A stretch of DNA of 64,000 bases from Rhizobium aethiopicum. GTDB lineage: Bacteria; Pseudomonadota; Alphaproteobacteria; Rhizobiales; Rhizobiaceae. Positions 22,006 to 23,083 of this stretch are shown one piece after another (position 1 is the stretch's first letter; the number at the start of each line of letters is the position of its first letter). The notes beneath the pieces are model-generated. The model did not search any database and was not told the DNA's origin. It saw only the letters and a program-made list of their open reading frames with translations. Where the stretch lies: NCBI RefSeq assembly GCF_014197535.1, contig NZ_JACIFV010000003.1, positions 342,091 to 406,090 on the forward strand, read 5' to 3'. Made by a program: the position numbers and the translations under genes.

Positions 22006-22174
22006 CGGCGTTCGATTTCAGGCTTTCTTCGGGCCGTTCGCGCAAACCTGTCGAGGGCATCGGTCTCGATGCCCAGCCTGCCGCGATTGGGGGCGATTGC
22101 CTTGACGGCATCGATAGGGATGCCGGCGGAATTGCCGGATGTCGGGTAGAGTGACACTTGCGCGCCGGAATGCA

Positions 22175-22268
22175 TTTGGACCTCGCTCCGCTGGCATTAC
22201 CCAGATCAGCTTAGAAGGGTCCGGAAGCTTGCGCCTCGCATCTCAGCCCCGGCGACACGGAGCTCCCC
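22175..22268 (-). ncRNA. TPP riboswitch (THI element)
   Basis: Reading the minus strand from 22268: GGGGAGCTCCGTG, then GGGGCTGAGATGCGAGG, GACCC, and the nearly invariant CTGATCTGGGTAATGCCAGC followed by GGAGCGAGG. This is the THI-box consensus, with the CTGAGA and the GGGTAATGCCAGCG segments that bind thiamin pyrophosphate. It lies about 170 bases before thiX and should repress the thiXZY operon when TPP is plentiful. Confidence 0.95.
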
Positions 22269-22354
22269 TGTTATTTCGGCGAAAACTATCATCGGGGTTT
22301 TCTTGCCGCAACCGCAAAATTGCAAAGCCGTCCGGCAGGTCGGGACGGGGCGCA

Positions 22355-22394
22355 GATGAAAAAACACCCGGACGGAGGTCCTGTCCGGGTGTTT
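22355..22394 (-). terminator. Strong terminator of a leftward transcript
   Basis: AAAACACCCGGAC (22361-22373) pairs perfectly with GTCCGGGTGTTTT (22382-22394), a 13-bp stem with an 8-base loop. On the minus strand the stem is followed by a run of six T (complement of 22359-22364). The T-run is on the minus strand, so it terminates transcription arriving from the SoxR-type promoter at 22576-22606. Confidence 0.85.
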
Positions 22395-22569
22395 TCCGAG
22401 GTTCCGTACCTGCCGGGAACGGAACCCGAGCGCTCGCCTCTCGGCGGCTATATCGGCGAGGGCGATCGGTACGGGGGCGGACGAGCGCCGATGCCATCAT
22501 TCCAGCTTGTATCGGCCGGATACTCTCGCTGTCGCTTCTTCCTGCGCCTCGCGCTTTACGGCCGCGGGA
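22355..22569 (-). ncRNA. Predicted SoxR-activated small structured RNA
   Basis: A transcript of about 215 bases is bounded by a SoxR-type promoter (-10 TATAAC, complement of 22576-22581) and a strong intrinsic terminator. A second hairpin (GGTTCCGT ... ACGGAACC, complement of about 22401-22428) precedes the terminator. No frame with a good start and ribosome-binding site fits inside. The only ATG frame (from 22500 leftward) runs through the terminator without a stop and has no spaced ribosome-binding site. It is therefore called a candidate small RNA; a short unannotated peptide remains possible. Confidence 0.5.
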
Positions 22570-22575
22570 GCAGGG

Positions 22576-22606
22576 GTTATAAAACCTCAACTAATATTGA
22601 GGTCAA
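22576..22606 (-). promoter_or_regulatory. SoxR operator/promoter
   Basis: On the minus strand, -35 TTGACC (complement of 22601-22606) and -10 TATAAC (22576-22581) are separated by 19 bases, the long spacer typical of MerR-family-activated promoters. The spacer holds the dyad CCTCAA-CTAATA-TTGAGG (22585-22602), which closely matches the known SoxR operator CCTCAAGTTAACTTGAGG. It lies 11 bases from the soxR start codon on the opposite strand, so it could also autoregulate soxR. Confidence 0.85.
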
Positions 22607-22612
22607 TAGGCG

Positions 22613-23083
22613 ATGAATAGGATTTCTGCAGCGCCGCTCGGCAGGCTTCTGACGGTCGGCGAAGTGGCGCAACGCAGTGGCCTTGCCGTCTCGGCGCTGC
22701 ATTTCTATGAGGCCAAGGGGCTGATCTCGAGTATCCGCACGCGCGGCAACCAGCGGCGCTACGGACGCGATGTGCTTCGCCGGCTCGGCATCATCAAGGT
22801 GGCGCAACGTGTCGGCATTCCACTTTCGGAAATCCAATCGGCATTTGCCTCCCTGCCGCAGGGACGCACGCCGACGATTGCCGACTGGCAGACGCTGTCG
22901 GCGCGCTGGAAGGATGAACTCGACACGCGAATCAGACGGCTGAGCCTACTGCGAGACCGCCTGACCGGCTGCATCGGCTGCGGCTGCCTGTCGATCGAAA
23001 GCTGTCCGTTGCGCAATCCCTTCGATCGGCTCGGCGAGGAAGGGCCAGGCGCACGGCTGCTGGAAAGCGAAATCGAAGTGTGA
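22613..23083 (+). CDS. soxR: Redox-sensitive MerR-family regulator SoxR
   Basis: A 156-residue regulator with an N-terminal MerR winged helix ([22 protein letters not shown]), a dimerisation helix, and the [2Fe-2S] cluster motif at C120, C123, C125 and C131 (C-x2-C-x-C-x5-C), the same spacing as E. coli SoxR. It should activate a divergent target when the cluster is oxidised by redox-cycling compounds. Nothing resembling soxS is present; the divergent transcript is the predicted small RNA. Confidence 0.95.

Follow-up and report, generated by a model that had tools for sequence, protein, structure and literature searches.

Which unit does SoxR control from the divergent side of its own gene in Rhizobium aethiopicum? 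We analysed a stretch of 64,000 nucleotides (the window) in which soxR (22613..23083, plus strand) encodes a 156-aa protein that matches TIGR01950 with 225.6 bits (cutoff 116.9) and carries the cysteine pattern C-X2-C-X-C-X5-C, which we take to be the iron-sulfur motif of the SoxR family. In Escherichia coli, soxR and soxS form a divergent pair whose CCTCAA-N6-TTGAGG operator lies in a promoter with a 19-bp spacer. A preliminary description of the window had reported the same design on the minus strand, with a soxS-like operator, an additional hairpin and a 13-bp intrinsic terminator with a T-run, and every one of these elements was recovered in our analysis. The -35 box TTGACC (22601..22606), read from the sequence and kept in most soxR loci of the genus, and the -10 box TATAAC (22576..22581) are separated by 19 bp, and a perfect palindromic SoxR-type operator, CCTCAATATTAGTTGAGG (22585..22602), overlaps the end of the -35 box and fills most of this spacer, as in a SoxR-activated promoter. 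Exact CCTCAA-N6-TTGAGG occurs at only two places in the genome.

Minus-strand transcription is predicted to start at 22568..22571, as judged solely from the position of the -10 box, and to end at an intrinsic terminator hairpin with a U run (22359..22395), whose 13-bp stem (22361-22395) is made up of 11 bp and two further A-T pairs and whose U run extends to 22359. The predicted RNA thus runs from about 22570 to 22359 (~210 nt), with the additional hairpin at 22400..22426. The predicted fold of the 217-nt segment was more stable than that of shuffled sequences, with a z-score of -3.13, and 1 of 200 shuffles was equally good. The claim that this region lacks a credible reading frame also stood: a 115-aa frame opening with TTG (22243-22590) crosses the terminator and begins upstream of the predicted start site, and an alignment of twelve loci (L001-L012) revealed indels of 1-2 nt in the region. 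At the level of sequence, the unit therefore has its own promoter, an intrinsic terminator and no conserved frame, as a small RNA gene would, while three relatives keep short frames.

To place the unit in context, we collected soxR loci across the genus. Searches at E <= 1e-55 identified soxR in 119 of 148 genomes, and addition of genome G035, which carries a partial soxR (L016), brought the total to 120 loci; L026, which duplicates genome G005, was removed and L032 kept for that genome, and three loci without soxR (L021, L137 and L138) were included neither in the count of 86 nor in that of 120. Of the 120 loci, 110 have TTGACC-N19-TATA, so the leftward promoter is no chance match. Its conservation has to be read with care. 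In 108 of the 110 loci with the leftward promoter, CGTAAAG appears on the minus strand (22554-22560 in the window), its spacing from the -10 box being almost constant. We considered this motif as a conserved 5' seed of the RNA and set it aside, since its plus-strand complement fits the -35 box of soxR at the right spacing. Together with TATAAA it looks like the soxR promoter itself: CTTTACG...TATAAA (22554..22583, plus strand), with 17 bp between TTTACG and TATAAA, is predicted to overlap the region where the RNA starts, and its -10 box overlaps that of the leftward promoter. The conservation of the leftward -10 box and of CGTAAAG in the leader can therefore not be credited to the RNA, and, as the -35 box is partly operator, it is mainly the hairpin and the terminator that independently support a leftward unit.

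The origin of the segment became apparent from a DNA search of the 148 genomes, in which the soxR side and the hairpin-terminator side often matched several hundred bp apart. When translated, the intervening sequence in six of these loci (L031, L035, L037, L041, L043 and L045) proved to be an FMN-reductase frame. In L031, L043 and L045 it is 191 aa long, with a ribosome-binding site ahead of a start codon that lies 81-84 nt from soxR. PF03358 (FMN_red) matched two of the six frames with 132 and 123 bits, and solved structures of related proteins include 1rtt, ArsH and chromate reductase. The window itself contains no intact FMN_red (PF03358) coding sequence, and only ~80 nt of the 3' end are left: positions 22441..22520 (minus strand) align as a decayed remnant of the last reductase codons, with the start and stop lost and small indels introduced, and 22363-22506 (query 24-167) is 82% identical (E 4.6e-31) to the intact locus of genome G104 over the 3' end of the gene and its 3' UTR. 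No close copy of the reductase was found elsewhere in the genome, the best match having 37% identity. Judged from these alignments, the segment is a deletion remnant of an FMN-reductase gene, the divergent soxR partner in most loci of the genus. The extra hairpin predates the deletion and, where the gene is intact, lies in its 3' UTR.

Reductase homologs (E <= 1e-40) were also detected in 13 of 111 genomes of other Rhizobiaceae genera. These loci resemble the one studied here in having soxR (9/13) and the operator with at most one mismatch (11/13), but they retain the protein, and the loop sequence with its stem was seen in 0 of the 13. As the divergent soxR/reductase pair also occurs in other Rhizobiaceae, we conclude that the reductase was there first and that the arrangement in the window arose by deletion. 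The arrangement thus shares with E. coli soxR-soxS a divergent SoxR-controlled unit of the same operator and spacer design, whereas the partner here was an FMN reductase of which only the RNA ends remain. Comparative data accordingly bear out the preliminary description in that a SoxR-type promoter precedes a short, structured, non-coding unit, while the FMN-reductase origin of that unit had been missed; likewise, the proposal that an RNA took the place of soxS holds for the non-coding unit, but the lost partner was the reductase and not soxS.

We then asked how the two forms are distributed. Of the 120 soxR loci, 82 have an FMN-reductase match between promoter and hairpin, 79 of them with a frame of at least 180 aa; L109 and L112 appear damaged, and L301 failed the scripted start test. 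All 82 keep both TTGACC-N19-TATA and the hairpin, the latter found by script in 81 and accepted by eye in L296, which failed the stem threshold. The reductase is absent from the other 38 loci, 28 of which retain both hairpin and promoter and ten of which, as scored by script, retain neither. On the soxR tree, reductase losses with the hairpin kept number from 3 (nodes below 0.95 collapsed) to 10 (fully resolved) if only losses are allowed, and reductase changes number 3 to 8 if regain is allowed, counts that are based on one or two short genes and that recombination could lower. The deletion junctions differ between groups of loci. Relatives thus appear, from these comparisons, to have lost the coding part of the reductase separately, three or more times, while keeping promoter, hairpin and terminator. 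A distant locus, L303 (soxR 72% identical), looks like a separate case. A homolog of the segment is found in genome G019 (C2:4,094,191-4,094,538).

Eight of the ten loci without the hairpin (L134, L288-L293 and L320) form one clade that lacks the reductase, the hairpin and the TTGACC box. By script the operator is present in 7 of these 8; in L292 the operator is truncated by the soxR start that we assumed, so that neither operator nor promoter could be scored there. A match of the loop pattern at position 853 of L289 was excluded as chance. In L134, ATP-synthase-type genes, recognised from translations, lie left of soxR, and the oxidoreductase gene on the other side is of the same kind as that in the window. 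The remaining two loci, L318 and L319, encode distant SoxRs (61-62%), lack the hairpin and contain one in-frame TAG in the searched stretch. They were scored as promoter-less because the pattern required TATA, and may have TTGACC-N19-TATGAA together with a different leftward gene. The ten loci lacking reductase and hairpin alike imply that the RNA is dispensable in some species, and, since they come mostly from one clade, the contrast between kept and lost hairpins gives weak support. In genome G003 (L021, G003:C29), a deletion has removed soxR, yet operator, leftward promoter, hairpin and terminator are all still in place, which counts against a small RNA reading, although this genome has a second SoxR elsewhere, with 63% identity.

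The hairpin is strongly conserved. Its stem, GGUUCCGU/ACGGAACC (22400..22426, minus strand), identified from alignments and covariation, carries the near-invariant loop UCCCGGCAGGU (22408..22418). Across 110 hairpins the loop follows the consensus YGGCAGGY, with GCAGG in all 110 and GGCAGG in 109; the forms encountered were UCCCGGCAGGU (52), UUCUGGCAGGU (47), CUCUGGCAGGU (6) and others (5). For covariation analysis we used 67 of 85 hairpins after removal of near-identical sequences (alignment A1; a second alignment, A2, contains 47). Over the 19 pairs of two helices in the 67 sequences, 97.9% of pairs were standard and 12 pairs had two-sided changes, and none of 500 shuffles equalled the observed covariation on any of five measures. 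The segment therefore has a conserved secondary structure with covariation, as is characteristic of small RNAs. In distant loci such as L120 most of the first stem is replaced (CCGGUCUCUCGU/ACGGGAGAUCGG in L120, where the three loop-adjacent pairs are the same), while the loop is kept. On the minus strand, G-U cells in the alignment number 64 and A-C cells 12, identifying this as the strand that folds. A comparison of hairpin with codon conservation across Rhizobium, proposed in the preliminary description, thus came out in favour of the hairpin, which is conserved with a covarying stem in a region without a conserved frame. The Rfam search suggested alongside it returned no known family, as the hairpin motif fell below every Rfam cutoff and only TPP and tRNA reached the gathering score in the window; RNAI, at 28.1 bits against a cutoff of 47, was rejected as a general three-hairpin likeness.

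When the genome was scanned with a covariance model of the motif, a single site scored strongly, at 86.9 bits, and the runner-up reached 30.1. Such single-copy occurrence counts against a small RNA reading; it is also why we rejected a multi-copy palindrome, the 19-nt loop region having one exact copy and 3 places with 3 mismatches in the same genome. Other model matches there were discarded: L256 is a hairpin-terminator without the loop, two overlap the same locus, and L259 (21 bits), where CCCGGCAGGTGCG occurs without a visible terminator, was attributed to chance. One-mismatch matches in genomes G039 and G004, considered as hairpins away from soxR, lack stem or terminator. Across 297 genomes of the family, the loop region matched with at most two mismatches in 48, and a backward control also gave many matches; at six of the matched loci that were inspected in other genera (L069, L082-L085 and L087), no hairpin was seen. 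The model matched in 8 of the 297, including 4 outside the genus in which no loop sits on the stem; its search filters are stricter, so weak relatives may have been missed. Two pairing partners for the loop were also rejected: ACCTGCCGG (22332-22340, past the terminator) is absent from L002, L003, L009 and L011 and was taken as chance, and the ACCU of the second hairpin is missing from that position in distant loci such as L120.

Does this conservation outlast the enzyme? One alternative is that promoter, 3' UTR hairpin and terminator are inert leftovers of a reductase gene lost recently, with an RNA perhaps made and having no effect. We counted changes per site on the tree of a clade of twelve species (L001-L012), none of which has the reductase. 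The leader plus remnant accumulated 150 changes in 143 sites, compared with 57 in 75 for four-fold degenerate sites of soxR. The hairpin changed at 3 per 27 sites, the loop at 0 per 11, the terminator at 8 per 31, the -35 box at 0 per 6 and the -10 box at 1 per 6; the sequence beyond the terminator had 56 changes in 77 sites and the TPP aptamer 30 in 114. Binomial tests against the four-fold sites, which treat changes as independent, gave the hairpin P = 1.8e-5, the loop 4.1e-4, the terminator 1.1e-3, the -35 box 0.012 and the -10 box 0.065. The hairpin is thus more conserved than the adjacent TPP riboswitch, while the stretch from promoter to hairpin changes freely. Inert leftovers are what a coding part that is clearly a deletion remnant would suggest, and one clade has also lost the hairpin and the TTGACC box; however, a leader and remnant that changed about once per site next to an unchanged loop and a slowly changing terminator, and the retention of both hairpin and promoter in 28 of 38 reductase-less loci, make this explanation unlikely in our assessment.

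A second explanation places the function in termination. A TPP riboswitch (RF00059, 57.5 bits; 22166-22279, minus strand) begins ~80 nt past the terminator and is followed by an ABC transporter operon whose binding protein is of the NMT1/THI5 type (PF09084, 19312-20349). Leftward transcription might persist because the operator and -10 region are common to the soxR promoter, and the terminator might block read-through into the riboswitch and the operon, with the hairpin aiding termination or RNA stability. Besides the closeness of the riboswitch, the overlap between the predicted soxR promoter and the leftward promoter fits this proposal, as does a T run that is longer in L001-L012 and L014 than in most other aligned loci. 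On the other hand, it leaves the near-invariant loop on a covarying stem unexplained, and many reductase loci have only a weak U tract, TTTCCC, after the second hairpin; we regard it as distinctly improbable. That the remnant encodes a short peptide is very improbable indeed: in-frame frames of 29 codons in L013 and L015 and of 28 codons in L287 do run from the old start, but in L001-L012 the old start codon has changed to GTG, GCG or GCC, frames differ and indels of 1-2 nt are common, and L014 and L104 leave almost no room for a frame. The deletions in L013, L015 and L287 could represent a stage toward the non-coding form.

The explanation that we consider probable, based on these comparisons, is that the segment comprises the remains of an FMN-reductase gene whose promoter, 3'-UTR hairpin and terminator make a SoxR-induced small RNA of ~210 nt. 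The anatomy of a small RNA gene is clearest in L014 and L104, where the unit consists of promoter, short leader, hairpin and terminator and the predicted RNA is down to ~92 nt and 112 nt, respectively, so short that no promoter inside the lost gene is needed. We further propose, more tentatively, that the SoxR-controlled reductase gene repeatedly and independently became a stand-alone SoxR-driven small RNA, selection keeping the 3'-UTR RNA and not the enzyme. Redox-cycling compounds oxidise the iron-sulfur cluster of SoxR, which then re-shapes promoters with a 19-bp spacer. In the window, the oxidised protein would re-shape the leftward promoter in this way, and polymerase would transcribe ~210 nt and halt at the terminator before the TPP riboswitch. 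The RNA, held by two hairpins, would present the loop UCCCGGCAGGU to a target RNA or protein. In reductase-bearing species the same hairpin would reside in the 3' UTR of the reductase mRNA, from which it might be freed by processing.

If this is true, SoxR has a direct RNA output, and the separate losses are parallel natural experiments on the conversion of an mRNA into a small RNA, in which the same promoter and 3'-UTR hairpin can be compared directly with and without the coding sequence in close species. The motif, a YGGCAGGY loop on a covarying stem, would also be precise enough to pull out the target of the RNA. Small RNAs derived from 3' UTRs are a known class in bacteria. The hairpin and terminator conserved after the stop codon in gene-bearing relatives resemble them, but the window no longer contains the coding sequence of the host gene, and little separates the RNA from the mRNA promoter. 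The redox-induced small RNAs OxyS and MicF of E. coli too represent an RNA output of an oxidative-stress regulon, but one that is controlled by OxyR and SoxS. The titles and abstracts surveyed described no small RNA driven directly by SoxR, in rhizobia or elsewhere. Passages of three R. etli transcriptome papers (PMC2881028, PMC4167512 and PMC3188799) do not name the segment, and their supplementary tables may list it; PMC4167512 reports 18 new regions in its Table 1, where the final entry shown is 3,776,471-3,776,654 on the chromosome. According to PMC2881028, a TPP riboswitch, ReC76, is expressed in R. etli, and it could correspond to the one in the window.

Two further loci of the genome bear on SoxR. 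One encodes a second SoxR-like protein (L286 1480-1929, G000:C30:4348) that is 51% identical and has the C-X2-C-X-C-X5-C motif; its locus contains no operator, even with 2 mismatches allowed. The other carries the sole other perfect SoxR-type operator (L056 1501-1518; G000:C2:481225-481242), which is part of a promoter of the form TTGACC-N19-TACAGA on contig C2 and is followed by a small frame on the minus strand. By eye, we take this frame to encode an ABM-type monooxygenase, and it is a possible remaining protein target of SoxR.
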